Shown here: positions 32,194-60,571 of the stretch, piece after piece
Position numbering within the stretch: the stretch's first letter is position 1
Layout: each line of letters begins with the position of its first letter
NCBI RefSeq assembly: GCF_004339015.1
Contig: NZ_SMFQ01000003.1
Location: 1 to 64,000 of the forward strand
DNA length: 64,000 nucleotides
From: Cocleimonas flava
GTDB lineage: Bacteria > Pseudomonadota > Gammaproteobacteria > Thiotrichales > Thiotrichaceae
Direction: 5' to 3'
The notes under the pieces: model-generated
Told to the model about the DNA's origin: nothing
The model's database searches: none
Seen by the model: only the letters and a program-made list of their open reading frames with translations
Made by a program: the position numbers and the translations under genes

Positions 32194-32407
32194 TTTCTTG
32201 AGTGTTACTTCATAGTTTAAGAAGGAATATTTAAGAAATAATGTAGAGATTATTCAGTATTTTTTATTATTAGTTGCTTAGAGATGATGATGAAAATAGG
32301 TGCTGAAAATTTATACAAATTACTTACCCCCCAATGGTCGTCATAAAAGGTGCCGTTGATCATGGTGAGTATAGTTTGAGCAAAGGCTTTTATTTATATT
32401 TGTTCAC

Positions 32408-32480: not shown

Positions 32481-32492
32481 AATTTAAATAAG

Positions 32493-32526
32493 AAAGCCTT
32501 AGGATTAATCATTCTAGGGCTTTTTT
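32493..32526 (+). terminator. Terminator-like hairpin after the degenerate tRNA-Cys
   Basis: AAAGCCTTAGGAT pairs imperfectly with ATTCTAGGGCTTT and is followed by T. Confidence 0.65.
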
Positions 32527-32603
32527 ATTGAAGTAACAAAAAGGTTTGAAATAGGCATTCCATCCGTTAATTTTTGATGCTATCATCCCGCCCCTAGTGA
32601 AAA

Positions 32604-32677
32604 GGTTGAGTAGCAAAATGGTTATGCAGCGGTTTGCAAAACCGCCTATCCCGGTTCGATTCCGGGCTCAACCTCCA
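32604..32677 (+). tRNA. tRNA-Cys (GCA), canonical copy
   Basis: 74 nt with CCA. Acceptor GGTTGAG / CTCAACC, anticodon loop TTGCAAA in a GCGGT/ACCGC stem, D-loop with GG, and a normal T-loop TTCGATT. Confidence 0.96.
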
Positions 32678-32758
32678 CTTTTTAAAAGTGTGACTGAAAA
32701 CTGTGTTAGCCAAACACTTAAAACTTAGGCTAGATTTATAAGACCATCTAAGTAGTAT

Positions 32759-32845
32759 GCCCAGGTGGCGAAATTGGTAGACGCAAGGGACTTAAAATCC
32801 CTCGGTGGCAACACCGTGCCGGTTCGATTCCGGCCCTGGGCACCA
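32759..32845 (+). tRNA. tRNA-Leu (TAA)
   Basis: 87 nt with CCA and a long variable arm (CGGTGGCAACACCG). Anticodon loop CTTAAAA, T-loop TTCGATT. The Gly-Cys-Leu order is common in gammaproteobacteria. Confidence 0.96.
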
Positions 32846-39000: not shown

Positions 39001-42000
39001 TCTGCCAATAGTTCATGGTTATTCGTGTCGTTGTCTTGTACCAGTTTAAAAACTTTTACAGGTCTTTGATTTGCATTGTACTCGTAGCTGAAGAAATCAC
39101 TTGTCTCGGGGCTGCCGCTCTTATTGTATTTTATTGTATTGCTGTCACCATTGAATAGTTTTTGTAATCCTTGGGGAAAATCTTTTTTTATTGTTGATAT
39201 GCGCTGTGTGTTTTTTGGTTGTTTACTGTTGGTTTTGCTTTTTGCTTTAGTGTTGTCTTCTGTTGATATTTGAAGGTCAGGTATTTTTATTTTTACATCT
39301 TGAAACTTTTTAGAGTATTTTTCAGCTAGCGTTATTAGTTTTCTATTTTCTGCTTTGGATGCGATAGTATTAATCTTTGTGTTTTCAGAAGTATTAGCTT
39401 TATGTAACTTCGAATTGTCGTGCTCTTCATTTTTTTCGTTTAAACGATGTCCTACTTTTTTATACTGGCCCTTTGTAGAAATGTTTTTAGAAATAGTTAA
39501 TTGTCCCTGAGTTTTATTTTTAGATAAAAGCCGATTACCTTTTGTTTCTTCAGGATATTCATAACTATCTGCTTTTACAGTGCCGTCGTCGAGGTGGACT
39601 CTATGGGTACGATTGCCTACCTTGTCGTAGCTAAACTTATATAAGCCAGTTAGTGTGTCTGCATAAGACAAGCGTCCTTGGTCATAATCATAGCTTTGCA
39701 GAGTACCGTTTTCATCAATACCAGTGATATTGCCTTTTGGATCATAGGTATATTGAAGTTTTAAGGTATTTGCTATTTGTATTCCCTGTAATTGTCCATC
39801 TTCCCTATAGGTATATTGGGTCTGTAAGCCGTTGTGTGAAAGGTAGCTGCTTTTACCGTCTGTTGAATCATGGTCTATTTCACTAACAATGTTTTCTTGC
39901 TTCATACCAAATAGGCTTTCACGGGTAATAGCGCGAAGTTTACCTGTTTGATGATTATTTTCGTTACCAAGATCACCTTGAGCATAGTAGTGATAACGAA
40001 GTGTTTGACCATCTGGTAGATGCTTTTTGTACAGTTTGTCTTGCTCGTTGTATTCGTAGCTTGTAGTGAATGACTCTGTATCTATTTTTCGTGTATGGGT
40101 AATCAGATGGCCTTCATTATTGTAGTCAAAGGACTCTGTAGTGTACTTGTTCGAAGTACTTGCAAGTTTTCCTGTATTCACGTCATAGGTGAAAGTTGTT
40201 ATACCATCGGTGTTTTCATTGCTAATGATTTGGTTTGCTGCATTCCATTGATAGGTGGTTATATTGCCATCCGCATCCGTGCGTTGAATGCGATTACCAG
40301 ATGCGTCATAACTATATAGATTCGTGCCTGTATCAGGGCTGATATGTTGCACTGTTCTGCCAAAGTCATCTTTCATGACTTGAGTTTTATTATCTCTGGG
40401 ATCTGTCAGAGCGGTATTTTGGCCTTTATTGTCATAACTATATTGGGTAGCAACATCCCCAGGTTGCGTTACGCTAAGCAATTGTCCAAGGTCGTTATAA
40501 TTTAAATCTATTGATTTGTTGTTCTTTGATACGTGGACTAGCTGACCTTTGTCATCATATTGGTAATCTATTTCTGACTCATCATCAAGGGTTTTAATTT
40601 GGGTTTTAGCTAAGCGTCGTTGGGCATCATAGAGATAGCTAATAGAATTGAGTACATCACCATTAGAACCTATAAGTTGAGTTAGCGTTCGACGACTTTC
40701 AGAGTCATGAAGCTGTTTTATTTTGCGCCCTTTATGATCACTTATCGAACTTAATCGATCGGCATCATCGTATTTCAACGTACTAACATCGCCATCAGCG
40801 GATGTGAGTTTTGTCAGGCGACCTTCGATATCATAGGTGTATTGTATGCTACGTTGGCGTTGTTTTATTTCTGATATTTTGCCTTGAGGGTTATAGCTGA
40901 TAAATAAAGGGCTTTGGCTGGATTGCTGTATTTTGGTGGGACGTCCATTCACATCATATCCAAGCACATTAATGATCTGGCCATCTGCTTGAGAAAGCGA
41001 TTGAATGCGATTTTGCTCATCATAACTCAGCTTGGTCAGGTCTTGAACATCATTTCTAGGTCCGTCAATAAGAGTTAAATTACCCTGTGAGTATTGTAGA
41101 TTTGTCGTGCGTTCTATCGTTTCGAAACTACCATCAGGTAATGGGCTAAATCCTGTTTCTGTCAAACTCACTGGTAACTGCTGTTCGTTATAAGTTACTT
41201 TGGTAACATGTTCTCCATTACTATTAACACTGGGTCTTGCAATGAGTGTAGGGCGGGATAAATTACCATCATATTCGTATCTTGCAATAAGTGTTTCAGT
41301 TGAGTCCTTCAACTTTTTAACAATTTTAGTAGTACGTCCTAATGCATCGTAATCATAAACGATGATATCCCCTGATTTTGTGTCGGTAGAGGTCGCAATC
41401 TGGTATCGGTCATTATAGGTATATATTTTATTAGTAGGTGGGCAAGTTACACAACCTGGTCCTTCGCTGCTTAGTAATAAAAATTGGCTGATTGAGTCAT
41501 GAAAGCGCCATGTATAGGTGTTTTTCTGCCCCAGAGAATTGGTTGAAATGGTCGTTCCTATTTCCCCCATGACTTCCGGGATACGGTATTCCAGGGTTAC
41601 CTTTTCAGCGCCATCCGCGTGGGTAGATAAGTTAGCACGTCCTTCATCAGTGTATGCCCATGTGGCATAGCGAACACCTGATCTGTTTGTAATACCTGTT
41701 AAGTGATTGGGAAAACCAATATCTTCATAATGATAAATTCGGCTCGTACCATCTGGGTAGGTGGCTTTAGAGAGATTGTGATCAGAGTCATAGCTATAAG
41801 AAATCACTCCGCCATCGGGTAAGGTTATAGATTGTAGATGGCCTGCTAGTTCCAATTCATTGCTTGCATCTTCATAGAAATTAGCCAGCGCACTGCTGCC
41901 TTCAGAGTAGTTAAAGAGGAGGGTGCGTCCTTTGGCGTCTGTTACTTGTGAGAGTTTTTTATTTTGTGCTTTTCCTGTGTACTTTAAGGTATAGCTATGA

Positions 42001-42596
42001 TTTCCCGGATAGACTATTTTAGTCGGAAAGTTACTGTTAAAAATAATTTGTCGACCGTCTTGTAGAATCCAGGTTGGCCATTTACCAACCCGTCCAACTG
42101 TTCCGTCTGAAGGAGATACTGCTCGATAGACTTTTGCTTTTGGGTCCAATGTAAAAATGATACGACGACCATCACTTTGATTTATTTGTATTGTTTTTTG
42201 ATCGTCTGAGTACTTCATTTGTACATCAAAAGAATGACTCCAACCTAGACCAATTCCTGTATCAGTTGAAATATTCAATGAGTTGTAATGACGTCTAAAT
42301 AGTAGAGAAGCGATTCCATTTGCAGGCTGGTAATCAATCTCATTTTGGTATTTATTACCCGTAATGATACTAATAGGGTTACCGTTAGTAGCGGAAGGGT
42401 TATTCGAGGGTGGTGCGCTAGCAGGTGATTGTTGTAGGCATGGATTTTCTCCTGAAAAAGGAGACCCGCTTGACGATGAACTTTGACCTGATCCTAGTGG
42501 ACATGAAGCCGCAAAAGATTGTATTGGAATTAAGAAAAAAAATGACAAACAAAAGAGAGTGATCTTTAGGTGTTTGAGCGATTTTTTAAAATCCAT
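36096..42596 (-). CDS. Exported YD/Rhs repeat protein 1 with LysM pair and unknown C-terminal domain
   Basis: The 2166-residue protein has a Sec signal peptide (residues 1-29, ending SFAA), a DUF6531-like start (NPISIITGNKYQNEIDY), many YD repeats from about 230 to 1300, and the Rhs core end YDPETGRYITSDPIGLKGG near residue 1350. Two LysM domains follow (TIASGDTLANIA and TVVCGDTLSELA, about 1425-1535), then about 620 residues I cannot assign. A Lys/Thr-rich insert (about residues 1027-1157) interrupts the YD array and is absent from paralogue 2. A G-rich repeat is translated at about residue 1241. No immunity-like gene follows, so a toxin role is unproven. The N-terminal 1200 residues are closely similar to the gene at 46661. 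Confidence 0.88.
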   Translation of the reverse strand: MDFKKSLKHLKITLFCLSFFFLIPIQSFAASCPLGSGQSSSSSGSPFSGENPCLQQSPASAPPSNNPSATNGNPISIITGNKYQNEIDYQPANGIASLLFRRHYNSLNISTDTGIGLGWSHSFDVQMKYSDDQKTIQINQSDGRRIIFTLDPKAKVYRAVSPSDGTVGRVGKWPTWILQDGRQIIFNSNFPTKIVYPGNHSYTLKYTGKAQNKKLSQVTDAKGRTLLFNYSEGSSALANFYEDASNELELAGHLQSITLPDGGVISYSYDSDHNLSKATYPDGTSRIYHYEDIGFPNHLTGITNRSGVRYATWAYTDEGRANLSTHADGAEKVTLEYRIPEVMGEIGTTISTNSLGQKNTYTWRFHDSISQFLLLSSEGPGCVTCPPTNKIYTYNDRYQIATSTDTKSGDIIVYDYDALGRTTKIVKKLKDSTETLIARYEYDGNLSRPTLIARPSVNSNGEHVTKVTYNEQQLPVSLTETGFSPLPDGSFETIERTTNLQYSQGNLTLIDGPRNDVQDLTKLSYDEQNRIQSLSQADGQIINVLGYDVNGRPTKIQQSSQSPLFISYNPQGKISEIKQRQRSIQYTYDIEGRLTKLTSADGDVSTLKYDDADRLSSISDHKGRKIKQLHDSESRRTLTQLIGSNGDVLNSISYLYDAQRRLAKTQIKTLDDESEIDYQYDDKGQLVHVSKNNKSIDLNYNDLGQLLSVTQPGDVATQYSYDNKGQNTALTDPRDNKTQVMKDDFGRTVQHISPDTGTNLYSYDASGNRIQRTDADGNITTYQWNAANQIISNENTDGITTFTYDVNTGKLASTSNKYTTESFDYNNEGHLITHTRKIDTESFTTSYEYNEQDKLYKKHLPDGQTLRYHYYAQGDLGNENNHQTGKLRAITRESLFGMKQENIVSEIDHDSTDGKSSYLSHNGLQTQYTYREDGQLQGIQIANTLKLQYTYDPKGNITGIDENGTLQSYDYDQGRLSYADTLTGLYKFSYDKVGNRTHRVHLDDGTVKADSYEYPEETKGNRLLSKNKTQGQLTISKNISTKGQYKKVGHRLNEKNEEHDNSKLHKANTSENTKINTIASKAENRKLITLAEKYSKKFQDVKIKIPDLQISTEDNTKAKSKTNSKQPKNTQRISTIKKDFPQGLQKLFNGDSNTIKYNKSGSPETSDFFSYEYNANQRPVKVFKLVQDNDTNNHELLAEYQYNSFGERIKKVSYSGGKQSKTTYYLYDGHTLTTEIEKVPVSGGVTFNQFIYLNKQPIAKLENKQLYAIHSDLLGTPKAASNDQKQTVWKASYTPFGKATVTNNTIAINLRLPGQYEDQETGTHYNYLRDYDPETGRYITSDPIGLKGGINTYAYVKNNPLELSDRLGLAPNDSRLDYLRDSLKPSTNSCSSINTSPLSALNQTTANQCSNTANIQVTDNNQAPDITTVYTIASGDTLANIAIAHGTSTDRLQILNDIENINQIRAGDTLLIPLEGDTAQFHPSYTVVCGDTLSELAEQFGIPLEDLIKLNEDFIDDIDLIYIGQEIIVTDTDTSEPVPTVVDPPPVDKCEGATPPDYVAEAQADGIIFDDLYHDGLLFGEERLVDRITNLSVGSNIELITRDSFSIDLNLSDFLDVNTSDKLKDRIKKIGNSNLGKAGGLVTSALGLTIPDNYQTQSAIKTKVTKREDGKYEISTYTLDKNGISWETSISKWLGLSEQSTEKIQGYVDNLPDWVPLPESIFDDNGKIKPDAAQLYAQIRDMDYSGVQKTYIADDADLAINVVNYFRAMDNTPLNDWDMEGGYGNLGLPKLSEPVSNHDGRDGDSGIGFSECLDQLQVSTRTIENGYENRADGHGSIFWANMVGYEGRIENSGHTVREQTPDGYTETDIETYKYSNRARTRVGTEKDIWDATYDSTEIKRTYIGDELVNIEIKIHNKSTGADVHIQNGQNFNKEIVISLDPRKITNTPYRNPLITQENLITDHSLDFLSGAKWRNREELSDSEKAQYAVDMANELFEIQRNGKIPTPPGTEKLYGSTALNDEISIALDSHSSIKDSPTPKLDNLTNYLSAVYGADAINSVNVTQEQNNSKDAEIWEYSPFNRGKTEDLGDQIGGKIGDVIKKAGSNINRFTPASAVWGAVSNSMTENTFIETYTSENIEVVDDPSRVHIYAPPYPEPGDDDTTLAP
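38857..38890 (-). repeat. G-rich dispersed repeat, copy 10, translated inside Rhs protein 1
   Basis: The copy is in the sense of the gene and reads in frame as VPVSGGVTF. The same site in Rhs protein 2 carries copy 13. Confidence 0.88.
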
Positions 42597-45111: not shown

Positions 45112-45762
45112 TTAGTAATTATTTGCATGCTCAAATTTTTTCATGGGGGTATTTTCATATTTAGTTACAAGCTTATTCCAGTGAGAATATAGTTCACCAA
45201 TAGTAAGTTCATTAAACTTATTATGTCCGCGTATTTCTAAGGTTCTTTCATCTTCAACTTTCATAAATCTTATATGCATTGAATAGTTTTGATCACTAGG
45301 ATTAAAGTGACTGAATTCAATCCAAGAAGCAGAATTTTTATTAGATTCTATTGGTAGAATATACTCGCCTGTCTTTAGATCAATTAATTCAAATACATCT
45401 TTTGCTGTTTTATTTTCTAGAAGACTTTTTAATGTAGAGTATCTTTCTGGGTTGTTTTTCATATCTTTAATATAAGATAAAGCAATATTTTTAGTATCGT
45501 TTTCAAACGAGGTACTAACTTCAAACATTAGTTTATAAGTATTAGCATCTATAATCCTAGATGATGCTTTTGGTTTGTTAGATTTTATATCTGCGTTAAT
45601 TAAACTGTTTTTCTTTTGTTGATTTAGTGCAGCTGATTTATTAGCTTCTAAGTAATAAATATATTCACCTTGAGGTTCCCTTCCAATGAATAAGTCTTCT
45701 ACGGTTGCAACATTTGTAGAGATAGTAGAAATGCTGAAAATCACGATTAAGTTTGGAATCAT
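45112..45762 (-). CDS. Exported hypothetical protein after PoNi
   Basis: The 216-residue protein begins with a hydrophobic signal-like segment (MIPNLIVIFSISTISTNVA) and is otherwise hydrophilic, with Asn/Lys-rich regions and a C-terminal domain (MHIRFMKVEDERTLEIRG). It lies 30 bases after the PoNi gene, so it is probably in the same operon. Function is not recognised. A periplasmic accessory or second immunity role is possible. Confidence 0.6.
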   Translation of the reverse strand: MIPNLIVIFSISTISTNVATVEDLFIGREPQGEYIYYLEANKSAALNQQKKNSLINADIKSNKPKASSRIIDANTYKLMFEVSTSFENDTKNIALSYIKDMKNNPERYSTLKSLLENKTAKDVFELIDLKTGEYILPIESNKNSASWIEFSHFNPSDQNYSMHIRFMKVEDERTLEIRGHNKFNELTIGELYSHWNKLVTKYENTPMKKFEHANNY

Positions 45763-45792
45763 TTTTATACCTAAATTTAAGAAAATTAATTT

Positions 45793-46605
45793 TTAGTTTT
45801 TAAAATGAACTAGATCATCTGGATAATATTCATTATCTCGGAAGGTTGTATCATCTATATCAAAAAACTTAACAACTAAGGCAACTTCCCAAGCCCAAAA
45901 TCCTTTATAAGTAGCGTTTTTTACTTCTAGCTCTTTATATAAGGTTTTGTTGGTAAGTTGTTTTTGTCTATGTATACCTAGTGACCCCAACCCTTTGAGG
46001 TTGGAGAGTAACTTTCCCCAGTCTTTTAAGTATAATTCAACAAGTGTGATACGTTTATTTTCATCAGCATCAATTATTTGGTCTAATAAAGTAAAAGTTT
46101 CTGGGTTACCTGAAATGTTCGAAATTTTTCGATCTTGTTGAAAGCGAGATAAAACAACATCTAGTAAACGGTCTTCACTTTCTGGTGCAAGAAAAGGGGC
46201 TATTTTTGAGATCTTATCTTTATTAATACCGAAACAAATAAACCAACTGAGTAGTGTATATAAAGATAAAATACGATGTGGGCTTACAAGTTTACCAGGA
46301 TAGAAATATGTTTTTCCCATATAGCCTTGTTTTTTAATTTCTTCCGCAACCCAGACATACCTGTCTATTGCTTCCAAGGCACGTTTTTCTAATAGACTTA
46401 AGTCATCACCTCTAGAATACATATAGGTGATATCCTCAATATAATCATTGGTATATCCACCTGTTAATGCTGCAAAATTTCGGGGTTTTGTAGGGTCTTC
46501 ATTTACTTTTTTATAAACAGCTATTTTATCTGTATTATGTGTATATTGTTGTTTTAGGTTCAAAATGTCATCAAACCACTCTCTGGGTTTTAATTTATCT
46601 CTCAT
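45793..46605 (-). CDS. PoNi-type immunity protein (DUF1910/DUF1911)
   Basis: The protein has 270 residues. MRDKLKPREWFDDILN opens a helical DUF1910-like domain. The second half matches the DUF1911 pattern, with LYLKDWGKLL and the diagnostic YKGFWAWEVALVVKFF followed by DNEYYPDDLVH. These paired domains define PoNi proteins, which neutralise PoNe DNase toxins. It follows the PoNe-ending Rhs gene by 55 bases in the same direction, the expected toxin-immunity order. Confidence 0.85.
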   Translation of the reverse strand: MRDKLKPREWFDDILNLKQQYTHNTDKIAVYKKVNEDPTKPRNFAALTGGYTNDYIEDITYMYSRGDDLSLLEKRALEAIDRYVWVAEEIKKQGYMGKTYFYPGKLVSPHRILSLYTLLSWFICFGINKDKISKIAPFLAPESEDRLLDVVLSRFQQDRKISNISGNPETFTLLDQIIDADENKRITLVELYLKDWGKLLSNLKGLGSLGIHRQKQLTNKTLYKELEVKNATYKGFWAWEVALVVKFFDIDDTTFRDNEYYPDDLVHFKN

Positions 46606-46660
46606 AATTTCTGTCTGTCTTAAAGTTATACAAATAAATGGTGTTTAAGAAACAATTTTC

Positions 46661-49600
46661 TTATGGTGACCATTCTGTGTTGGTAACTGTTGCGCCTTGA
46701 TCACCTACTCGAGTGACTTCTTTAAAGATAATTGTACCATTATCTGTAGCAACGTCTGTACCCCCAGTTTGTTGAGTTTGAACACCAGTAACTTCTGCTT
46801 TTACAGTTTTTAATGTGCCATCTTCTAATGCGTTCTTGATAGCTAGTTGATCTGCTTGAGGCAACCCTGAAGTTGCAAGACGATCATCTATCCATTTACT
46901 TGAAAGTTGGGTATCACCATCAACCGTCTGATTTAATGAACCAGTACTTCCTCCAGTTGAAGCTTTTGTTTCTACAATTACATATTCGTAAGTACCATCA
47001 CTCTTTTGTCTTTTGAATATTCCATCGATACCATTTTGACCTTGATACCCAGGAAGGTCATCATCAACTGTACCGCTACTTTTTTGTGTGTTTCCTAATG
47101 GAGTCCAGCCTGCGTCCTCCATAGCTTGTGTAGTTCGCTTTTCACCTACTAAGCCTGTCACAAATCTGCTGACATCAGATGCATCAAGTTTAACTTCAAC
47201 TTTCTTTCCATCCTCAAAAATATACTTTTTACCGCTGTTTTCATAAACTTGGTGACCTCGATATTCGGTGCCATTTAGTTTCGTATATATTCCTTCATTT
47301 GGTCCCCGTATATTATTGCCTAACGTGGAATAACCAGATGGTCTATTTGTGATAGGTGTATTTGGAAGATTCCTTATATCAGAGACTGAAACATTATTAT
47401 TTGTTGCAGCTTTAGATATCCGTCTAGAACCTCCGGATATAATATCGATTGCAGACTCGGCAAATTGTGATGTGGCATTACCAAAGCTAATACCTAAATT
47501 ACATAATTCAGTCCGAGTAGATGCTCTTGCTATACCGACTCCAGTCTTGATAATGCTATAAAGAAAATTTACACCGCTAGAGCCAAAGTTCCACCATCCC
47601 CATCCAAGAAGTACAGCATCTACAACTAAATTTAATCCTGGTACAGCTTGTAAAACAGCTATTCCAGCCATCATTGTAACCATGATGGCTATATTTTCAG
47701 GCTTTAACATATCGAGTAGCGCTTGTTTAACATTGCCAACAGCTTGTTCAAGAGCAACGTTCAATACGAAAGTTAATTTATCTGTGTATTCTGCAGTAGC
47801 TATTGGTTTATCAACGCCATCAAGTGTAATGGTGGTTTCATCAGGGGCTAAGCCTAAGATATCACTTGAAAATAGCGGGTTGTTACTAACATAAGCATAT
47901 GTGTTTATACCACCCTTGAGCCCAATAGGATCGCTGGTAATATATCTACCAGTCTCAGGGTTATAATCCCTTAAATAGTTATAATGCGTCCTTGTCTCTT
48001 GATCTTCATATTGCCCCGGAAACCTAAGATTTAGTGAGATTGTTCCTACGACAACTTCTGCTTTACCAAAAGGCGTATAATCCGCTTTCCAGACAGTCTG
48101 TTTTTTATCATTACTGGCAACTCTCGGTGTTCCCAGATGATCACTATGGATCGCATAAAGCTGTTTGTTTTCAAGTTTGGCAACCGGTTGATGCTTAAGG
48201 TAAATATATTGATTAAATGACACCCCCCCACTTATAGGCTCTTTTTCTGTAATTTCAGCGGTTAAGGTATGGCCGTCATACAAGAAGTAAGTAACGGTTT
48301 TCTGACTGCCCGAATAGCTAACCTTTTTAATTCGCTCGCCGAAGGTATTGTATTGGTATTCGGCTATTAGCTCTTTATTTGATTTGCTATTTTTAAAGAC
48401 TTTAATGGGGCGCTGGTTTGCATTGTATTCATAGCTAAAACCGTTAGTTTTTTCAGGGCTGCCACTTTTATTGTATTGGTAGGCTTTAGTTATGTTGCCT
48501 GATTCTTGGGAGTAGGATAGTAAACGATTACCTTCTCCATTTTCTGGGTATTGATAGCTTTCAGATGTAAAAGTGCTCTGTATATCCTGATGCGCTTTCG
48601 CCGTTCGATTACCTACCTTGTCATAGTCATAATGATACTGACCTGTAAGTGTATCGGCTAATGTGAGTCGACCTTGATCGTATTCAAAGCTTTGTAGAGT
48701 GCCATTTTCATCAATGCCCGTAATATTGCCATTCTGGTCATAGGTATACTTAAGTTTTAAAGTATCTGCGATTTGAATATTCTGTAACTGCCCATCTTCT
48801 CTAAAGGTGTATTCGGTTTTAAGCCCATTGTATGAAAGGTAGCCACTCTTACTGTCGGTTTTATCATTGTCAATTTCGGCAATGATACTTTCTTGTTTTA
48901 TCCCTAATAGAGATTCACGGGTAATCGCTTTAAGTTGGCCTGTTTGTTTATTATTCGTGTTGTTTACATCGCCTTCGGCGTAATAGTGATAGCGCAGGGT
49001 TTGACCATCAGGTAGGTGCTTTTTGTGCAGTTTATCTTGTTCGTTGTATTCGTATCCGGTGGTGAATGTGTGTGTGTCTATTTCACGCGTATGCGCTATG
49101 AGTTGACCTTCGTTATTGTATTGGAAAGATTCGGTGGTACTAGGGTTAGTAGTGCTAGCGAGTTTGCCTGTTTTTGAGTCGTAATCAAAGGTAGTGATTT
49201 CAATCTCGCCATTGTTGCTTGTGCTTACTTTTTTGACCAGTTGATTCGCTGCATTCCACTGATAAGTGGTGATGTTGTTTTCAGGGTCAGTACGTTTAAT
49301 ACGATTGCCCGATGCATCATACGCATAGATATTAGTGCCTGTATCAGGACTGATGTGCTGAACAGTTCTACCAAAGTCATCTTTGATGGTTTGGGTTTTG
49401 TTGTCTCTGGCATCAGTAAGGGCAGTGTTTTGTCCTTTGTTGTCGTAGTTAAACTGGGTGACGACTTCGCCGGGTTGTGTTAGGCCGAGAAGTTGACCGA
49501 GGCCGTTATAGCTTAATTCAACCGCTTGATCATCCTTTTCTACTTTAACTAACTGACCTTTCTCATCATATTGGTAGTCTGTTTCTGTCTCACCATCAAG

Positions 49601-51595
49601 ATTTTGTGTTTGGGTTTTATCTAACCTGCCTTGTGCATCGTAAAGGTAGCTTATGGTATTGAGCACCTTACCACTTGCGCCCATCAATTGTGTCTGTGTA
49701 GGACGACTTTCACTGTCGTGAAGCTGTTGAATTTTTCTGCCTTTGTTATCATTTAACGTATTCAGGCGACCCGCTTCGTCGTAGGCCATTCTGATTACTT
49801 CACCATCGGCAGAGGTGATTTGGGTTAAGCGTCCTTCGATATCATAGCTATATTGAACGCTACGGTTGCGTTGTTTGATGTCAGTGGGTTGGCCCTGAGC
49901 GTTATAACTGATGTGTAGGGGGCTTTGTTCGCCTTTCTGTATCTGTGTTGGGTGGCCGCTGATATCATAGGAAAGTACTTTGATGGATTGCCCATTAGCC
50001 TGAGTTAGGCTTTGCAAACGATTTTGTTGATCATAAGCAAGTTGAATTAAATCCTGTACATCATCTCTTGGGCCATCAATGGTTGATAGATTGCCATTGG
50101 TGTAATCGAGTTTTGTTCTACGCTCAATTGGGTCAAAACTGCCATCAGTAGTTGGGCTAAAACCTTTTTCTGTGAGTGTCGCCGGTTGTTGGTCATCGTT
50201 ATAAGTTATAGCAGTTATGTGTTCTCCATCAGGATTCACGCTAGGTCTTGCTATTAGGGTAGGGTGAGGTAAATTACCATTGTATTCATAGCGTACAACT
50301 AATCGATTTGATGATTCTTTAGCTGCTGTAGGCACCCCCCCACTTTGAGGGCTTTTTTGTTTGATAGATGATATGCGGCCTTGTTTATCGTAATTGTATT
50401 GTAAAACGTTGCCAGTTTTTGTATCTATTATAGATTCTATTTGATAGTCATTATTGTAGATATAGTTTTTATTCGGAGCAGGGCAAGTTGCACATCCTGG
50501 ACCTTCACTGCTCAATAACAGACGCTGACTTATGGTTTCATAATAACGCCAGGTGTAAGTGCTTTTTTGTTCTAAAGAATTAGTAACTATGGTTGTGCCG
50601 ATGTCACCCATTTGCTCAGGAATTTTGTATTCAAGTGTGACTTTTTCTGCGCCATCTGCATGAGTTGAAAGATTTGCTCGGCCCTCATCGGTATATCCCC
50701 AGGTTGCAAAGCGAATGCCAGATCTGTTGGTTATACCGGTTAAGTGATTGGGAAAGCCTATATTCTCATAATGGTAAATACGTTTGGTATTATCCGGGTA
50801 GGTTACGGAGCTAAGATTATGTTCATCATCATAGCTATAGTTTATGACTTTTCCGTCGGGCAGAGTGACTGATTCTAAGTGTCCCGGGAGCTTAACGTTA
50901 TTGTTTGTATTTTGCTCAAAGTTGCCTAGTGCAGTGTTGCCTTTTGAGTAAGAAAATAGAAGACTTCTGCCATTATTGTCTGTTACTTTTGAGAGGTGTC
51001 CATCAGGAATATTTTCATATTCTAACGTAAAAGAACGATTGCCTGGATAGGTGATTTCAACGGGGCGGGAACCAAGAAAGAAAATACTTCGCCCATCGTT
51101 TAATGACCATAATATTTTATTGCCTATAGCACTTATGACACCATCCTGGGGTGAAGTTGCTCTAAACTGTTTGGTATTGACGCTATCAAGAGTAAAGATG
51201 ATCCTACGACCATCACTTTGATTGATCTGAATTTTATTTTGCTTAGGATTAGTGACAAGTTTTATGTCAAAAGAATGGCGCCAACCAAACCCTAACCCAG
51301 TATCGGTTTCGATATTAAGTGAGTTGTAGTGTCGTTTAAATAAGAGCGATGCAACACCACCAGCAGCTTCGTAATCTATTTCTTGCTGATATTTATTACC
51401 TGTAATAACACTAATAGGATTGCCCACAGATGAGTTAGGGTTGGCAGATTGTTGAGTGCTTCCTGGTATTGGTGAACTGTTTGCCCCTGAGCAATTACTG
51501 TCACCGCCATCGTTCCCACCACCGTCACAGGCGTTTGCATTGAAGGTTAGTGATAATAGAGCAAAGAGTGTTACTAAAACATGAATTAGTTTCAT
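46661..51595 (-). CDS. Exported YD/Rhs repeat protein 2 with C-terminal PoNe DNase domain
   Basis: The protein has 1644 residues. A Sec signal peptide (residues 1-22, ending NANA, next residue Cys) precedes a Cys/Gly-rich stretch, NPISVITGNKYQQEIDY, and YD repeats to the core end YITSDPIGLKGG near 1235. A hydrophobic region (about 1290-1350) and a linker lead to the C-terminal domain (about 1460-1644). There NGIDGIF and YVIVETKAS give the D...ExK catalytic set of PoNe, a PD-(D/E)xK DNase. The PoNi gene follows. The start ATG overlaps the TadE-like gene by four bases. Two G-rich repeats are translated at about residues 417 and 1121. Most Rhs toxins of gram-negative bacteria lack a Sec signal, so the export route is unusual. 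Confidence 0.88.
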   Translation of the reverse strand: MKLIHVLVTLFALLSLTFNANACDGGGNDGGDSNCSGANSSPIPGSTQQSANPNSSVGNPISVITGNKYQQEIDYEAAGGVASLLFKRHYNSLNIETDTGLGFGWRHSFDIKLVTNPKQNKIQINQSDGRRIIFTLDSVNTKQFRATSPQDGVISAIGNKILWSLNDGRSIFFLGSRPVEITYPGNRSFTLEYENIPDGHLSKVTDNNGRSLLFSYSKGNTALGNFEQNTNNNVKLPGHLESVTLPDGKVINYSYDDEHNLSSVTYPDNTKRIYHYENIGFPNHLTGITNRSGIRFATWGYTDEGRANLSTHADGAEKVTLEYKIPEQMGDIGTTIVTNSLEQKSTYTWRYYETISQRLLLSSEGPGCATCPAPNKNYIYNNDYQIESIIDTKTGNVLQYNYDKQGRISSIKQKSPQSGGVPTAAKESSNRLVVRYEYNGNLPHPTLIARPSVNPDGEHITAITYNDDQQPATLTEKGFSPTTDGSFDPIERRTKLDYTNGNLSTIDGPRDDVQDLIQLAYDQQNRLQSLTQANGQSIKVLSYDISGHPTQIQKGEQSPLHISYNAQGQPTDIKQRNRSVQYSYDIEGRLTQITSADGEVIRMAYDEAGRLNTLNDNKGRKIQQLHDSESRPTQTQLMGASGKVLNTISYLYDAQGRLDKTQTQNLDGETETDYQYDEKGQLVKVEKDDQAVELSYNGLGQLLGLTQPGEVVTQFNYDNKGQNTALTDARDNKTQTIKDDFGRTVQHISPDTGTNIYAYDASGNRIKRTDPENNITTYQWNAANQLVKKVSTSNNGEIEITTFDYDSKTGKLASTTNPSTTESFQYNNEGQLIAHTREIDTHTFTTGYEYNEQDKLHKKHLPDGQTLRYHYYAEGDVNNTNNKQTGQLKAITRESLLGIKQESIIAEIDNDKTDSKSGYLSYNGLKTEYTFREDGQLQNIQIADTLKLKYTYDQNGNITGIDENGTLQSFEYDQGRLTLADTLTGQYHYDYDKVGNRTAKAHQDIQSTFTSESYQYPENGEGNRLLSYSQESGNITKAYQYNKSGSPEKTNGFSYEYNANQRPIKVFKNSKSNKELIAEYQYNTFGERIKKVSYSGSQKTVTYFLYDGHTLTAEITEKEPISGGVSFNQYIYLKHQPVAKLENKQLYAIHSDHLGTPRVASNDKKQTVWKADYTPFGKAEVVVGTISLNLRFPGQYEDQETRTHYNYLRDYNPETGRYITSDPIGLKGGINTYAYVSNNPLFSSDILGLAPDETTITLDGVDKPIATAEYTDKLTFVLNVALEQAVGNVKQALLDMLKPENIAIMVTMMAGIAVLQAVPGLNLVVDAVLLGWGWWNFGSSGVNFLYSIIKTGVGIARASTRTELCNLGISFGNATSQFAESAIDIISGGSRRISKAATNNNVSVSDIRNLPNTPITNRPSGYSTLGNNIRGPNEGIYTKLNGTEYRGHQVYENSGKKYIFEDGKKVEVKLDASDVSRFVTGLVGEKRTTQAMEDAGWTPLGNTQKSSGTVDDDLPGYQGQNGIDGIFKRQKSDGTYEYVIVETKASTGGSTGSLNQTVDGDTQLSSKWIDDRLATSGLPQADQLAIKNALEDGTLKTVKAEVTGVQTQQTGGTDVATDNGTIIFKEVTRVGDQGATVTNTEWSP
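48215..48248 (-). repeat. G-rich dispersed repeat, copy 13, translated inside Rhs protein 2
   Basis: In frame it reads EPISGGVSF, at the same place as copy 10 in the paralogue. Confidence 0.88.
50328..50358 (-). repeat. G-rich dispersed repeat, copy 14, translated inside Rhs protein 2
   Basis: In frame it reads KSPQSGGVP. The aligned site in Rhs protein 1 (IVKKLKDSTETLIARYEY) has no such sequence, so this copy is an insertion or a deletion between paralogues. Confidence 0.88.
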
Positions 51596-52710
51596 AGTGA
51601 ACTTGTTGACGTTGGAATGGGAGTAAAGTTTGGGATATCAATTTCGCATATACACGATGCGCCAGTAGAGGGATCGCAGACTTCAACGCAAAGACCTATT
51701 GGGCTTGTGCTGCAGTCATAGCATGTGCCCGTATTTGCGTCACAATAATCCTGGCCATTTGTTCCACAACTAGAAACAGTAGGGTCACAAGTTGAAGGTC
51801 CCGATGGTGTTATTGTGTATGGGTCGTCATAAACGACGGATTCATCAATCGCACTATCTGGCAGTGGATTAACTGTTGGATTGATAATGCTATCGATTTC
51901 ATTGTCTGTTAATAGGTTTCCTCCGCTTTCTCCTGCAAAAACAGGGCTTTGCATTCTTGCAATGGCATGAGATCGAATAGCTATATAGTAGCCCCTACTT
52001 TTACCAAATACAGTATTTGTTAGGGAGGTTGATGTGTTATTTTGTGATAATTTGTTACATTGTTTTTGTTCTTGGCTGCCACTAAACCTCAGGACCGAGT
52101 TATAAAATAATCTGTCTAGACCAGGAACCGAAAGCTTTTGGCACCAATAGGTTTTTATTTTCAAAAGGTTAGCATCCTGTATTCCAATATTCCTATTTAC
52201 TCCTCCAATTGACACATTTTTTTCGGTAGGATCTCTCCACTTCAAATTATCATTTGGAATTACGTAGTTTTTTTCCTGAGTACTTCCCACTACATTAACT
52301 TTTAGTTCTACTTTGAATACGTCATAAATCTCTTTTGAGGGGCTAATTACGGTTAATGCTTTTTGGTTGTTGCCAGTGTCCATAAACGTTTGAATTAATC
52401 TAGCGCAATTATAGCCCGCAGCAATTATTGTACCTTGACCAACACCAGGGCATTTCTTTTTAGATGCGTATAAAGGAGCCATACCTTCAGCAAAAGCAGT
52501 TTTAATTGAATCTAGATCAGCATTGTTAAGTGTACCTTTTCTTACAGCTTCTGCTGATGCCAGGTTTAAAGTATTTTTAGCTTTATAGATGAAGGTCATT
52601 TCGACCATGCCAAAAATTATAATAAAAAATATAGGCAAAATATAAAGAGCTTCAGCTAAGGTTGCTCCAGATTGATATTTAGTGTGACTATTTTTAATAG
52701 TTGCGCGCAT
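51592..52710 (-). CDS. TadE-like pseudopilin with Cys-rich C-terminal extension
   Basis: The 372-residue protein has the TadE N terminus: a basic leader, then GATLAEALYILPIFFIIIFGMVEMTF, with the +5 acidic residue after the cleavage Gly and a long hydrophobic helix. The periplasmic part holds the usual Cys pair and a late Cys/Asp/Thr-rich tail (about residues 300-355, CDPTVSSCGTNGQDYC). The length is about twice that of standard TadE. Its stop overlaps the start of Rhs protein 2, so the two are translationally coupled. It diverges from the main Tad cluster. Confidence 0.8.
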   Translation of the reverse strand: MRATIKNSHTKYQSGATLAEALYILPIFFIIIFGMVEMTFIYKAKNTLNLASAEAVRKGTLNNADLDSIKTAFAEGMAPLYASKKKCPGVGQGTIIAAGYNCARLIQTFMDTGNNQKALTVISPSKEIYDVFKVELKVNVVGSTQEKNYVIPNDNLKWRDPTEKNVSIGGVNRNIGIQDANLLKIKTYWCQKLSVPGLDRLFYNSVLRFSGSQEQKQCNKLSQNNTSTSLTNTVFGKSRGYYIAIRSHAIARMQSPVFAGESGGNLLTDNEIDSIINPTVNPLPDSAIDESVVYDDPYTITPSGPSTCDPTVSSCGTNGQDYCDANTGTCYDCSTSPIGLCVEVCDPSTGASCICEIDIPNFTPIPTSTSSL

Positions 52711-52909: not shown

Positions 52910-53098
52910 ATGGATATGACATTAGCGGGTCAAATAGTTGGTCGTATTTTATTATCATATTTTGTTGTTTTAGTTATTATGTTTTTGGTTTCTAATTTTA
53001 ATTTGAAAAGGGCTTTTTATCATACGCACCGCTGGTATGGTTTTATTGCTCTCGTTTTTATTTTCTTAGTAGGTATATCCTCGCACTTTTATAACTAA
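52910..53098 (+). CDS. Small membrane protein (62 aa)
   Basis: It has two hydrophobic segments (IVGRILLSYFVVLVIMFLVS and YGFIALVFIFLVGISS) joined by a His/Arg-rich turn (RAFYHTHRW). A GAGG site lies upstream. It begins the rightward group after the divergent pseudopilin-Rhs operon. Function unknown. Confidence 0.6.
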   Translation: MDMTLAGQIVGRILLSYFVVLVIMFLVSNFNLKRAFYHTHRWYGFIALVFIFLVGISSHFYN

Positions 53099-55873: not shown

Positions 55874-56167
55874 ATGAAAAATGCAGTAAATATGAACATG
55901 AAAAAGCAACAATTAGGTCAGGGTATGACTGAGTATATTGTTATTGTTGCGCTTATCGCAGTTGCAGCAATCGGTGCATACGGTTACTTTGGTAAAACAG
56001 TTCAACATCAGGTTGCTAACTTGGCTGCGGAAGTATCTGGTGATCATGGTGCTGCAAGTACTTCTGCTGCTGCTGCTAAAACTACTGCGGGTAAAGCAGA
56101 AGAGAAAGCCAAGCAAGCTGTTGATATGGGTACTTTTGGAGCAAATACGAGTACTGGCGGAGAGTAA
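55874..56167 (+). CDS. flp: Flp/type IVb pilin
   Basis: The 97-residue prepilin has a leader ending at Gly and the class IVb motif QGMTEYIVIVALIAVAAIGAYG, with Glu at +5 of the mature protein followed by Tyr. The C-terminal part is Ala/Lys/Thr-rich. An AAGGAG site precedes the ATG at 55874. Two hairpins follow the gene, which may limit read-through so that pilin is made in excess. Confidence 0.9.
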   Translation: MKNAVNMNMKKQQLGQGMTEYIVIVALIAVAAIGAYGYFGKTVQHQVANLAAEVSGDHGAASTSAAAAKTTAGKAEEKAKQAVDMGTFGANTSTGGE

Positions 56168-56262: not shown

Positions 56263-57762
56263 ATGTTCTTATTTTTAGTTAAGAGATTTTATTTCTGTTT
56301 CAGAAACAAAATCCTCAATACTTATATACTTTCAAAGAGTGTAAAGTATAAACAGAGGGGTTATGCAACGGTTCTGACTTTAGTCATGTTCTCTGTTTTA
56401 GGATTATCTCTCTTAGCTATGTTTAATAGTGGTCAAGTAGTAACTCATAAATTAAAGTTACAAAATGCAGTTGATGCCGCTTCCTATAGTACGGCAGTAG
56501 TCGTGTCTAGAGAATTAAATTTCATGGCGTATACAAACCGTGCCATGATTGTAAATCAAGTGGCGATTGGTCAAATGGTGGGTCTTGTTTCATGGCAAAA
56601 AATGCTAATAGAAGCCACTGAAAATCTAAGCGACGTCGCTGACCTCGTTTCTTGGATTCCAATTATTGGGCAGGTTATCCAAGGCTATTTTAATGCTTTT
56701 GAAATTGCTGTATCGGTATCAGAGCCGATTATCGAAGGAATGAGCACGCTTCTTGTTTACGAAGCTAATGCTGTTATCCGGGCTTTATCTCAGGCTCAGT
56801 TCCTTTTGCATAACGCCACAAAAGGTTTAATTCAAAGTACTTTTCATGATGTGTTAAAAGATAATGATCCCGATGCAGTGATGAGTGCGATAGGGAATGC
56901 TAATTTATTATCTTTCGGCTTTCAAGATGTTGAAGCTTTTGCAAAAAGAACAGAAGAAGCTAATACAGGGACTTCTGACTTAGGGCGATATGATGATTTT
57001 GCATCTGTTGTAAAAGAGTCCGGCGATGATTTTATGAAGGGAAGAAGCTATGAATGGATTCATCCCCCTGCTATACCGTTATTCTTTGAAGCATGGATTG
57101 ACAAAAAAGGTGGGAATGAGTTTGATCGTAAAACTCAAAACGGGAAATATGTTTGGGAGTGGAGTGCTATGGATACGGTTAGTCTTTGGACCAGAACTTT
57201 TAGCTGGGATCCTAAGGACTTTGGCTGGCAGTCTCCAGAAGAAACCCTTCCTATAGGATGGGGCGCAGCACATACTTCTAATCAATCAGGTAATTATTCA
57301 AGTTATAATTCAAATAGTAAATGGGATAATGCTAGAGAAAATTCTATGTCAGCCGGGTTTGCAGTAAATGAATATGGGGATAATAAATTAGGTGGTACTA
57401 GTGGTCTTCAGCGTTTCTTCTATTTGGGGGATGATAATCAGAATCCTATACCACCATCATTTATTGCAGTTGCTGCCAAAGATGCAGGAAGTGTAAGAAC
57501 ATGGAAGGAGATTGTTGAAAGTAATGGTGGGCAAGTAGGCCCAAGATTTGATATTGAAGAAAAAGGTACTTTGAAATCGAGTAAAATGTACTCTATTTCT
57601 AAAGCTGAGCCATATTATTCAAGATCGTATGATTTGGATGCTTTTAGAAGGGAAGATCTTCAAGAAGAGTTTGGCAACTTATTTAATCCGTATTGGCAAG
57701 CTAGATTGGTTGCCATTAGTCCAGCGGAAAGGACTCAGATTCTTTTGACGATACCTAATTAA
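56263..57762 (+). CDS. TadG-like Flp pilus assembly protein
   Basis: The 499-residue protein has a basic leader, RGYATVLTLVMFSVLGLSLLAM (pilin-like membrane helix at about residues 32-53), then LQNAVDAASYSTAVVVSREL, the typical TadG N-terminal pattern. The rest is a large periplasmic domain with Trp/Tyr-rich segments. The start at 56263 lacks a ribosome site and the true start may be closer to the helix. It is directly followed by a TadE-like gene. Confidence 0.78.
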   Translation: MFLFLVKRFYFCFRNKILNTYILSKSVKYKQRGYATVLTLVMFSVLGLSLLAMFNSGQVVTHKLKLQNAVDAASYSTAVVVSRELNFMAYTNRAMIVNQVAIGQMVGLVSWQKMLIEATENLSDVADLVSWIPIIGQVIQGYFNAFEIAVSVSEPIIEGMSTLLVYEANAVIRALSQAQFLLHNATKGLIQSTFHDVLKDNDPDAVMSAIGNANLLSFGFQDVEAFAKRTEEANTGTSDLGRYDDFASVVKESGDDFMKGRSYEWIHPPAIPLFFEAWIDKKGGNEFDRKTQNGKYVWEWSAMDTVSLWTRTFSWDPKDFGWQSPEETLPIGWGAAHTSNQSGNYSSYNSNSKWDNARENSMSAGFAVNEYGDNKLGGTSGLQRFFYLGDDNQNPIPPSFIAVAAKDAGSVRTWKEIVESNGGQVGPRFDIEEKGTLKSSKMYSISKAEPYYSRSYDLDAFRREDLQEEFGNLFNPYWQARLVAISPAERTQILLTIPN

Positions 57763-58632
57763 ATGTTAAGAAGAAATCAAAATGGTGCTGTTTGGGTTGA
57801 GTTTCTCGTTGCAGCAAGTACTGTTCTGTTAAGCATGTTTTTCTTAATTCCGATGCTTGGTAAGTATATGGATATTCGACATTCTACAGAGAGTGCAGCC
57901 AGATATTCTGCTTGGGAAAGAACAGTATGGCACGGAAGTGTTGGTGAATATGATAGCTCTAATACACAGCAGAAACTATCATCCCATATAGAAAATGAAT
58001 CAAACCATAGAGTATTGGGGAATGGGAATACTTTAATTTATGGCGAACAAAAAAATGATTCAGATCAACAAAATATGAACGTGGATTCCATGCATTATTT
58101 TAATAATCATAATACTGAACAGTACGAAGAGTTATTAAAAACCAAGAGTAATACTGCGGATACATCAAAACAATACTTTTCATTGATTGAAAATCAAACT
58201 GAAGCGCCAGGTTTTAGTGCAATAGATACAATCTTTGGTCTCTATGGATGGATGATGGATGGTGGGTTCTCATCTTTAGAAGATAAAGGTTATTACACGG
58301 AAACCGTCAGTACTTCTGCCAAAACCCCAACTTGGATGGGTGAGTCTCAATATATTGAAAATTCAACACCTTTTGTAAATGATGTAATGTCTTTTACTGC
58401 ATCAAATTCTATCCTTGTTGATGGCTGGGGTGCTGGTGGTAGCGATGATAATATTGAAAGAGTTAGAGATATGAAGGCCAAGTTTCAAGAAGATAGTTTA
58501 GACTTTGTTGTGGAAGCGATGAAGTTTCCTTATATTTTCTTTAGACCGTTTGTAGAAGAGCTTTGGGACATCGATGTTGATAAAATAGATGATGAGTTGT
58601 TATTAGATGAAACCCATCTAGGACAGTATTAG
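57763..58632 (+). CDS. TadE-like pseudopilin
   Basis: The 289 residues start with a short leader (MLRRNQNGAVWVEFLVAAST): Gly, then Ala-Val-Trp-Val-Glu with Glu at +5, and a hydrophobic helix. A TESAARYSAWERTVWH segment recalls TadE-like tails. The C-terminal region is unassigned. The ATG abuts the previous stop, so the pair is coupled. Confidence 0.75.
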   Translation: MLRRNQNGAVWVEFLVAASTVLLSMFFLIPMLGKYMDIRHSTESAARYSAWERTVWHGSVGEYDSSNTQQKLSSHIENESNHRVLGNGNTLIYGEQKNDSDQQNMNVDSMHYFNNHNTEQYEELLKTKSNTADTSKQYFSLIENQTEAPGFSAIDTIFGLYGWMMDGGFSSLEDKGYYTETVSTSAKTPTWMGESQYIENSTPFVNDVMSFTASNSILVDGWGAGGSDDNIERVRDMKAKFQEDSLDFVVEAMKFPYIFFRPFVEELWDIDVDKIDDELLLDETHLGQY

Positions 58633-59581: not shown

Positions 59582-60571
59582 GTGAAAAAAAAATCCAATA
59601 TCTGGTTGATGTTATTCATTGCTGTAGTTTTAGGTGGGGCCACGTTTTATTTAACCCAAACTTATTTAAAAAATAAAGAAAAAGAGTTACAAAACTCTTA
59701 TCAGCCGGAGAAAGCTGAAACTAAAAGAATTATTGTTGCAATAGGTGATATTAAAAAAGGTGATATTCTGAAGGGACCAATGGTTGCACCGGTAGATTAT
59801 CCTTCGCAATTTGTAAGTGAAGGAGCTATCTCTCCTGGTGATGCAGCAAGTTATTTTGGTCAAATTTCAAATGTGCCTTTAAAACGTGGTCAAATAATCT
59901 ATGCTTCAAATTTAGGGGGAGATGCTGTTGACCGTTTTTCAGAACTTTTGAAAGATGGAGGAACAGCGGTTACTTTAGAAGTAGATGCTAAAAAAAGTAA
60001 TTCACATATGCTTATCCCGGGTGATTTCGTCGACATTTTAGTATTAGCTGAGAAGTCTAAAATTGATCCTTTATCAACAAAAGATTTGTCTAAAGGTTTG
60101 AGTACGGACAAAAATAAAATGCTGGTACCTTTGTTATCAAAAATTAAAGTTCTTTCTGTTGATAGAAATCCTTTAGCTAGTGAAGATGAAAAATATCGTA
60201 TTCCGATAGATAAAGAGGGGCGTATTCCTACTTATAGTTATGTAACGGTAGGTGTTCCAATTAATGACGCTACTAAATTAGCGTTAGCCCAAGATTTAGG
60301 GGACATTGTTTTCTTCTTAAGAAATTCCGAAGATATGCGTAAAGTAAAAGTTAAAACCCTTGACGGACTTTTTGCTGTTTATAGCGATAAGAATGATTCA
60401 CAAGATAGTTATGAATATTATTCAGCAAAAAGTAGGTTAGTACTGACGCCCACATCAAAGTCTGATGATAATAAAAATTACAAGGCAAAAGATTCTGTAG
60501 ATTCACCAAAACTGATGTTTGAAAATACTTACCCTAGAATAATAGAGCCAGCGAGTACACAAGCTAACTAA
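59582..60571 (+). CDS. cpaB: Flp pilus assembly protein CpaB/RcpC
   Basis: The 329-residue protein starts with GTG and a membrane helix (IWLMLFIAVVLGGATFYL). An SAF domain follows (IIVAIGDIKKGDILKG, VPLKRGQIIYASNL), then the RcpC C-terminal domain (LIPGDFVDILVL). CpaB aids the secretin in the periplasm. It precedes the secretin gene, as usual. Confidence 0.9.
   Translation: MKKKSNIWLMLFIAVVLGGATFYLTQTYLKNKEKELQNSYQPEKAETKRIIVAIGDIKKGDILKGPMVAPVDYPSQFVSEGAISPGDAASYFGQISNVPLKRGQIIYASNLGGDAVDRFSELLKDGGTAVTLEVDAKKSNSHMLIPGDFVDILVLAEKSKIDPLSTKDLSKGLSTDKNKMLVPLLSKIKVLSVDRNPLASEDEKYRIPIDKEGRIPTYSYVTVGVPINDATKLALAQDLGDIVFFLRNSEDMRKVKVKTLDGLFAVYSDKNDSQDSYEYYSAKSRLVLTPTSKSDDNKNYKAKDSVDSPKLMFENTYPRIIEPASTQAN

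Follow-up and report, generated by a model that had tools for sequence, protein, structure and literature searches.

The DNA stretch analysed here (the window) comprises 64,000 nucleotides of the Cocleimonas flava genome, and its minus strand carries an operon in which the gene of a TadE-like minor pilin is followed by that of an Rhs/YD-repeat protein ending in a PoNe-like nuclease domain, and then by a PoNi immunity gene. The operon faces away from a Tad (type IVc) pilus locus on the plus strand. The genes and domains of the operon are listed below, with scores and cut-offs from Pfam.

51592-52710, minus strand: TadE minor pilin, 372 amino acids (aa); PF07811 at 35.7 bits against a cut-off of 22.9
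46661-51595, minus strand: Rhs/YD-repeat toxin carrier, 1644 aa; DUF6531, ten RHS_repeat stretches and RHS, all over cut-off, together with the RHS-associated core TIGR03696
47849-51424, minus strand: Rhs core, about residues 58-1249, of the TadE-linked Rhs subfamily, ending in TIGR03696
46664-47260, minus strand: PoNe-like nuclease domain, the last 199 aa of the Rhs protein, with the motif GE...GIDGIF...YVIVETK
45793-46605, minus strand: PoNi immunity protein, 270 aa; PoNi_C at 68.8 bits and PoNi_N at 28.3, both over cut-off
45112-45762, minus strand: 216-aa protein whose gene adjoins PoNi; no family over cut-off

The divergent Tad locus contains the following genes.

55874-56167, plus strand: Flp major pilin candidate (GQGMTEY...); PF04964 at 18.0 bits against a cut-off of 32.2, with fitting sequence and position
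56263-57762, plus strand: Tad/TadG-like protein (PF13400)
57763-58632, plus strand: TadF-like protein, by position; no Pfam family
59582-60571, plus strand: RcpC/CpaB (Pfam)
60625-62130, plus strand: RcpA/CpaC secretin (Pfam)
62135-63847, plus strand: TadA/CpaF ATPase with an N-terminal FHA domain (Pfam)

The locus continues beyond the window with TadB (assigned by homology to the neighbours' family), TadC (T2SSF) and TPR genes (both by Pfam), and with a gene just past the window that presumably encodes a DUF192 protein. A preliminary description of this DNA, made from the letters alone, had proposed the gene order TadE, Rhs with a PoNe tail and PoNi, a four-base overlap of the first two genes, a Sec signal on the Rhs protein and divergence from a Tad locus. 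All of these were borne out: the genes are recognised by Pfam over cut-offs (PoNe by motif), the Rhs start codon lies inside the tadE stop (ATGA), the Rhs N-terminus has an apparent Sec signal (signals, here and below, were judged by eye), and the Tad genes lie on the plus strand by Pfam, TadB by homology. Its fourth gene, described as encoding an exported protein, is present at 45112-45762, and the product matched no family over cut-off.

The window TadE consists of a class III prepilin signal (G|ATLAE) with a hydrophobic helix, a globular domain and a long cysteine-rich tail. As it is the only PF07811 protein over cut-off in the Cocleimonas flava genome, the TadE adjoining Rhs probably belongs to the window Tad locus. 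In the PoNe-like tail, the published motif Kx3GE..GIDx2Y..Yx3ExK is matched by TGLVGE, GIDGIF and YVIVETK with two substitutions, K to T and Y to F. The tail gave no Pfam match and no useful match in a PDB sequence search; its predicted structure (pLDDT, the model's own confidence score, 66), compared with a view to the PD-(D/E)xK fold of PoNe, gave no Foldseek row below E 0.001, the best rows having E values of 0.04 or worse and including several nucleases. Rows missing from Foldseek or VIA-align are not taken here as absence of a fold. The PoNi gene (DUF1911/PoNi) follows directly downstream, and its product has no signal, which fits a DNase acting in the cytoplasm. A promoter/terminator scan gave as many promoters as shuffled sequence (44 against 44.7) and was not used.

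Relatives of the window TadE were sought in a first survey of 115 genomes, in a class survey of 369 genomes with profile A1, in a phylum-wide draw of 398 genomes with profile A2, and in a scan of named genomes. Window-type TadE was present in 7/115 genomes of the first survey, and profile A1 matched 32/369 class genomes, the own genome included in both counts. Nine of these 32 were toxin-linked, seven through Rhs (the own genome, G098, G117, G145, G269, G336 and G410) and two through HINT (G105 and G206); in two others (G245 and G352), the contig ends inside tadE and the toxin link was not assigned. In G206 (L076:8734-11106), matches to TadE, HINT, PoNe-like and accessory sequences are spread over separate, disrupted reading frames, which looks like the remnant of such a locus. 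The named-genome scan gave 73 loci, including 15 with TadE and Rhs in one open reading frame (ORF), 5 with TadE and HINT in one ORF, 7 with TadE followed by a separate Rhs ORF, an interrupted case (L080) and one with fragmented TadE and HINT (L148); L109 has a second gene of the TadE-HINT kind. The alignment behind these 73 loci was seeded mostly with fusions, so that their toxin fraction is biased, that of the class survey less so; an earlier scan with the window TadE alone had found no relative among 51 pattern matches. Profile A2 matched 18/398 genomes, several weakly, and one locus (L153 of G711) of the nine examined besides the own has TadE followed by an Rhs frame.

In toxin-linked relatives, the pilin and the toxin body are frequently one protein. 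Pfam cut-offs are exceeded in single ORFs by TadE and Rhs in a 1799-aa protein (L017 of G098), by TadE and PT-HINT in a 730-aa protein with a SUKH gene downstream (L019 of G105), and by TadE, DUF6531, RHS_repeat and Tle1 in a 1913-aa protein (L086). Over both surveys, 22 distinct fused TadE-Rhs or TadE-HINT genes were found in 17 genomes, including four cut by contig ends (L087, L088, L099 and L106) and one with an interrupted Rhs part (L083). Distinct TadE ORFs number 98; 24 are longer than 450 aa, and 22 of the long ones match Rhs or HINT. The distinct-ORF counts drop loci found twice (L014, L017-L019, L051, L053, L054, L061, L066, L067 and L078). The prepilin motif G/A-x4-E followed by a hydrophobic run is present in 20/22 fused genes, the others being L099, which is 5'-open, and L139, which is without the motif. 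A low-complexity linker rich in G, D, N, P and S joins the pilin and toxin bodies. In the L091 fusion (L091:9929-15910), a HINT-type domain and then an HNH-like nuclease follow the Rhs core, as judged by eye, and both processing modules may be present in this one gene. Toxin-linked hosts include Candidatus Thiodiazotropha, Povalibacter uvarum, Steroidobacter, Amphritea balenae, Neptunomonas antarctica, Methylomonas, Zoogloeaceae and one metagenome-assembled genome (MAG) of Verrucomicrobiaceae. Amphritea balenae and Povalibacter uvarum each carry a TadE-Rhs-Tle1 gene; the former gave two RcpC matches and none to the T6SS sheath protein VipB, the latter matches to both RcpC and VipB.

The fused genes are also placed like pilus genes. 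In seven loci (L079, L084, L086, L087, L089, L091 and L093), the fusion ends a run of Tad genes at no more than 1.4 kb from tadD or its neighbour, the usual place of tadE. In L085, L095, L101, L107 and L109, which resemble dispersed tip clusters, the Rhs fusion has no further Tad gene called in its vicinity; in L109, a TadA fragment and the TadE-HINT gene lie about 7 kb from the Rhs fusion. The split arrangement, TadE followed by a separate Rhs frame, occurs in the own genome and eight others. Methylomonas L143 repeats the divergent order of the window, with identities of 54% for TadE and 72% for Rhs over the 370 aa available. Since the split recurs in L143, L100, L103, L125 and L131, and since the Rhs frame opens with a start codon of its own and an apparent Sec signal, a sequencing error separating tadE and Rhs in the window was rejected.

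A tree of Rhs cores places the window proteins within this group. Nineteen TadE-linked cores and ten unlinked ones are separated by a single branch with support 97/97, requiring one change, and 0/500 shuffles were as low. The window Rhs and a second window Rhs group with the fused proteins L089 and L091 (support 98/90), so that the split pair of the window nests among fused TadE-Rhs proteins. The linked rows were picked by hand, found via TadE and include the second window Rhs, which no TadE adjoins, whereas the unlinked rows were found via Rhs, so that the sampling differs; the unlinked loci had about 1.5 kb of flank, and 4/10 of their ORFs (L165, L172, L174 and L175) lack a resolved N-terminus. 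L131 and L125 are long branches, and L080, the first part of L083, L087, L088, L106, L135, L143, L149, L153 and all HINT types were left out.

The pilus machinery, moreover, co-occurs with the toxins. RcpC was found in 14/16 toxin genomes against a base rate of 54/369 in the class, the 16 being 8 toxin genomes of the class survey and 9 of the genomes behind the 28 toxin-linked named loci, minus that of L131. Within the class survey alone, RcpC was present in 8/9 toxin genomes against 46/360 others (Fisher p 1e-6). The preliminary description had asked whether TadE-Rhs linkage beside Tad genes recurs, whether it co-occurs with Tad genes, and whether the same Rhs gene is commonly found without them. 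Linkage recurs as one-frame fusions, several of them ending Tad loci, and in the divergent L143; co-occurrence is seen in the RcpC counts; and a strong Rhs match (E<=1e-60) was obtained in 16 class genomes, of which the 10 without window-type TadE at Rhs all have their Rhs cores on the other side of the 97/97 branch (no TadE was found in the genome in nine of these, and in G180 it lies on another contig). Its suggested coupling of a Tad minor pilin with an Rhs-shelled toxin thus gained support from fusions, gene position, the tree and co-occurrence alike.

The tails carried by these bodies are varied. Among ten tails searched, Tle1-like phospholipase domains exceed the cut-off in seven (L052, L083, L085, L086, L095, L107 and L109). 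Elsewhere, a TseH-like domain in L149 and AHH in L139 exceed theirs, and Tlde1 in L131 falls below its own (27.4 against 30.1). PoNe-like tails occur in the window, L097 and L109, three tails on two scaffolds, each with an adjoining PoNi_C gene over cut-off, and further neighbours of immunity type are Imm11 in L139, DUF4303 after a Flp-HINT gene described below, and the SUKH gene of L019. The remaining tails, and the genes after several tails, matched no Pfam family. In the pairs L082/L085 and L095/L101, the bodies are 53-55% identical over about 1500 aa and no match between the C-terminal tails is detectable. By these sequences, the proteins are polymorphic toxins in having conserved bodies with exchanged C-terminal domains and in being followed by a cognate immunity gene of putative neutralising function. 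A strict lipobox is present in only 3/9 genes downstream of phospholipase-type tails, so that their periplasmic immunity is read by eye. Downstream of the main gene, L017 and L107 have additional tail fragments and second immunity-like genes. In L017 (L017:695-4490), the immunity candidate is present twice, and the transposase-like genes that separate the two copies, recognised by eye, are close to an orphan toxin tail.

Collectively, it is probable, if well short of certain, that the operon is a polymorphic toxin system using a minor pilin of a Tad pilus as its trafficking module, displayed or delivered by the pilus. TadE would be inserted in the inner membrane, processed by a prepilin peptidase, and would prime and cap the pilus, probably together with the TadF- and TadG-like proteins. 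The majority of the toxin-linked relatives found have their Rhs or HINT body covalently joined to TadE; in the split form of the window, the Rhs protein, exported by the Sec pathway as it appears, would dock on TadE in the periplasm, which is likely from the nesting of the split pair among fused proteins. The Rhs shell would carry the PoNe-like DNase at its C-terminus and free it by self-cleavage, the pilus, extending through the secretin, would bring its loaded tip to a neighbouring cell, and PoNi would protect the producer. The tip position, secretin passage, docking, self-cleavage, entry into the target and killing are steps that we infer.

Several observations weigh against this pilin-borne route. 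Window-type TadE was found in 0/11 genomes of the same genus, and 21/32 class genomes with TadE show no Rhs or HINT on the fetched flanks (5 of them with less than 0.6 kb downstream), so that TadE looks ordinary in most of those genomes. RcpC was missed in two toxin genomes, G269 (87% complete) and G432 (Neptunomonas antarctica). The model leaves unexplained how a folded Rhs cage passes the secretin. Docking of the split form by a disulfide gave a weak difference, cysteines being present in the last 40 residues in 8/8 against 38/57 (p 0.05; 3'-open ORFs, ORFs of <=150 aa, L080, L148 and L151 were left out). A type VI secretion system (T6SS) sheath gene (VipB/TssC) lies elsewhere in the genome, at G000:C2:873625. 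Finally, the second window Rhs lacks an adjoining TadE, so that Rhs export without TadE is possible, and the class contains more distant Rhs proteins that have signal-like starts but no TadE.

The last two observations are those on which the best-placed alternative draws, namely, that Rhs is a Sec-exported toxin reaching the surface without the pilus and that the tadE overlap only couples the expression of adhesion and toxin genes. Apparent Sec signals on both window Rhs proteins agree with it, as does the report that Rhs4/5 of Myxococcus xanthus have signals and act without a T6SS (PMC10433427; the papers cited here and below are represented by excerpts). A mere coupling of expression would not account for one-frame TadE fusions in relatives, for the nesting of the window Rhs inside the fused clade, or for the fusions at the end of Tad loci and the co-occurrence of RcpC, and we regard this alternative as unlikely.

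Delivery by the same genes without a long pilus is to be considered next: TadE might act like a pseudopilin of the type II secretion system (T2SS), pushing the toxin through the secretin and releasing it without contact. The covalent link of TadE to the toxin in many relatives and the presence of a Flp pilin candidate speak for a pilus instead, as does the proposal that TadE-type pilins are pilus tips (PMC12075869). Since Tad machines are related to the T2SS (PMC10433427) and the same genes would be needed, a low probability, slightly lower again, is left to this pseudopilus.

That Rhs-PoNe is cargo of a T6SS encoded elsewhere in the genome is very unlikely. The preliminary description had noted the lack of VgrG, PAAR and Hcp; this holds for the Rhs protein, the operon and its neighbours, where the Pfam scan found no PAAR, VgrG or other T6SS domain, and does not extend to the whole genome, given its sheath gene. 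VipB was matched in 8/16 toxin-TadE genomes, the own included; the lack of a match in the other eight indicates that a T6SS is not required in general, an argument unusable in this genome. PoNe was described in a T6SS effector (PMC6688995), and the names of the Tle1, TseH and Tlde1 tails are those of T6SS effectors. The apparent Sec signal of the window Rhs and the pilin signals on the fused homologues are nevertheless those of another route. The idea of a pilus adhesin with a mere former toxin domain, to which the adhesive nature of both YD-repeat proteins and Tad pili lends itself, is hardly credible beside the PoNi or Imm11 genes adjoining several tails, the C-termini exchanged on conserved bodies, and the tail fragments that recur in L017 and L107 together with second immunity-like genes.

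Besides TadE, a Flp-like pilin appears to carry a toxin, at the end of this Tad locus. At a position just beyond the window that tadE occupies in many relatives, a gene for a 619-aa protein (L020:2504-4363) combines a Flp-like N-terminus, a repeat-rich linker, PT-HINT (57.3 bits against a cut-off of 27.7) and an AHH-like tail (16.6 against 22.3, below cut-off), and a DUF4303 gene follows, the two spanning L020:2504-4994 (G000:C2:66504-68994). Its N-terminus is 36% identical to the Flp candidate of the locus over 47 aa (two-sequence BLAST, E 1e-11), with Q instead of E at +5 of the prepilin motif; the closest comparison for the protein as a whole, with the TadE-HINT-AHH protein of Neptunomonas antarctica (L139), gave 51% identity over 294 aa.

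HINT-type loci are, moreover, accompanied by an accessory family of about 200 aa, exported-looking or membrane-anchored, found near seven of them (L020, L084, L093, L097, L109, L139 and L148) and near L142, with a weak match near the G206 locus; L090, with 1.1 kb left downstream, shows no accessory gene. In L142, from the same MAG as L143, TadE runs off the contig beside the accessory gene and a 66-aa protein. The accessory genes located are as follows.

L020:5070-5672: accessory gene
L084:12794-13447: accessory gene
L093:13298-13858 and 14957-15643: two accessory genes
L097:13595-14269: accessory gene
L109:4400-5071: accessory gene
L139:12756-13418: accessory gene
L142:8943-9515: accessory gene

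The one member modelled, the L139 copy (pLDDT 85), has a predicted PsbP/Mog1/DcrB-type fold, and VIA-align gave Z 12 to the T6SS immunity protein Tsi3 and about 10 to the Eag chaperones SciW and EagT6. A shared fold by itself shows no function, and our guess that the family is a chaperone or adaptor is made because it accompanies different toxins.

We lean, by a little, towards a still wider reading, that these systems form a separate class of contact-dependent delivery in Gamma- and Betaproteobacteria, in which Tad tip pilins (TadE, sometimes Flp-like) carry Rhs-caged or HINT-processed toxins as interchangeable tips in Tad loci and at orphan sites, and the PsbP/Mog1/DcrB-like accessory protein, sharing its fold with Eag chaperones and some T6SS immunity proteins, serves as a periplasmic chaperone or adaptor for HINT-type tips.

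Other features of the window and its surroundings are as follows.

36096-42596, minus strand: second Rhs protein (2166 aa), from the subfamily of the first, with LysM domains and an apparent Sec signal; no TadE adjoining
52910-53098, plus strand: 62-aa membrane-like protein resembling the N-terminus of one member of the exported accessory family

The C-terminus of the second Rhs matches no identified domain, and the genes downstream of it are on the other strand, so that no immunity gene directly follows. Four tRNA genes (Gly, Cys, Cys, Leu) at 32078-32845 lie about 3 kb from it and mark a possible integration hot spot. The 66-aa protein of L142 resembles the 62-aa protein by eye. The Tad locus of L018 (L018:10041-13621) encodes a free-standing FHA protein alongside a PP2C phosphatase, which, together with the FHA domain on the window TadA, suggests phospho-control of these Tad systems.

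Tad pili are widespread organelles of adhesion, and, should their tip pilins carry toxins, loci annotated for adhesion or biofilm formation can be interbacterial weapons; the findings suggest that some bacteria arm adhesion fibres to kill neighbouring cells. Polymorphic toxins themselves are already known, and what would be new is the Tad minor pilin as trafficking module: no description of TadE-Rhs or TadE-HINT toxins was found among the listed matches of full-text searches in open-access PubMed Central (PMC), preprints excluded, so that these toxins would gain a trafficking route not found described in the literature searched. Of the new delivery route put forward in the preliminary description, the coupling of a Tad minor pilin to an Rhs-shelled toxin is supported, and display or delivery by way of the secretin would be its putative next step. 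The route has partial precedents in the Kil pilus tips and in Flp pilins briefly mentioned as partners of ARC toxins.

Compared with known systems, exported Rhs/WapA-like surface proteins likewise have a signal peptide, a large YD-repeat body and a C-terminal toxin and are independent of the T6SS, and differ in that no pilin partner is described in the portions of the paper drawn on here (PMC10433427). T6SS Rhs and PoNe effectors share the Rhs body, the polymorphic C-terminus, the PoNe/PoNi pair and tails of the Tle1, TseH and Tlde1 types (PMC6688995), but bear PAAR/VgrG or FIX/MIX, in contrast to the prepilin or apparent Sec signal and the TadE found here; PoNe has also been noted behind predicted Sec signals (PMC6688995). 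Tad loci occur beside some type VII secretion system loci (PMC11217815). In the Flp pilin-ARC toxin, too, the N-terminal partner of the polymorphic toxin domain is a pilin; this toxin is closest to the Flp-HINT-AHH-like gene beside the window, not to TadE-Rhs; it is one list item in the excerpted source, in whose text 'Tad' and 'pilus' have 0 occurrences (PMC12605009). The Kil Tad-like pilus of Myxococcus xanthus resembles the present system in being a Tad-family pilus with minor pilins (KilLMN, TadEFG-like) proposed as interchangeable Tips with variable domains (PMC12075869, PMC8460266), and TadEFG minor pilins have been proposed as the pilus tip both generally and for Kil (PMC12075869). It also has FHA proteins (PMC10433427), as the window TadA has an FHA domain. 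Kil kills on contact (PMC12075869, PMC8460266), as the window system is proposed to do. The question raised by Kil predation, whether a Tad tip itself carries toxic activity, would be testable with defined toxin genes in cultured Povalibacter uvarum and Amphritea balenae. The main text of PMC12075869 contains neither 'Rhs' nor 'hint' (0 occurrences); Tip function is tied there to a needleless type III secretion system and the toxin is left open in the passages drawn on, whereas in the system described here TadE carries, or pairs with, a typed toxin accompanied by its antidote.

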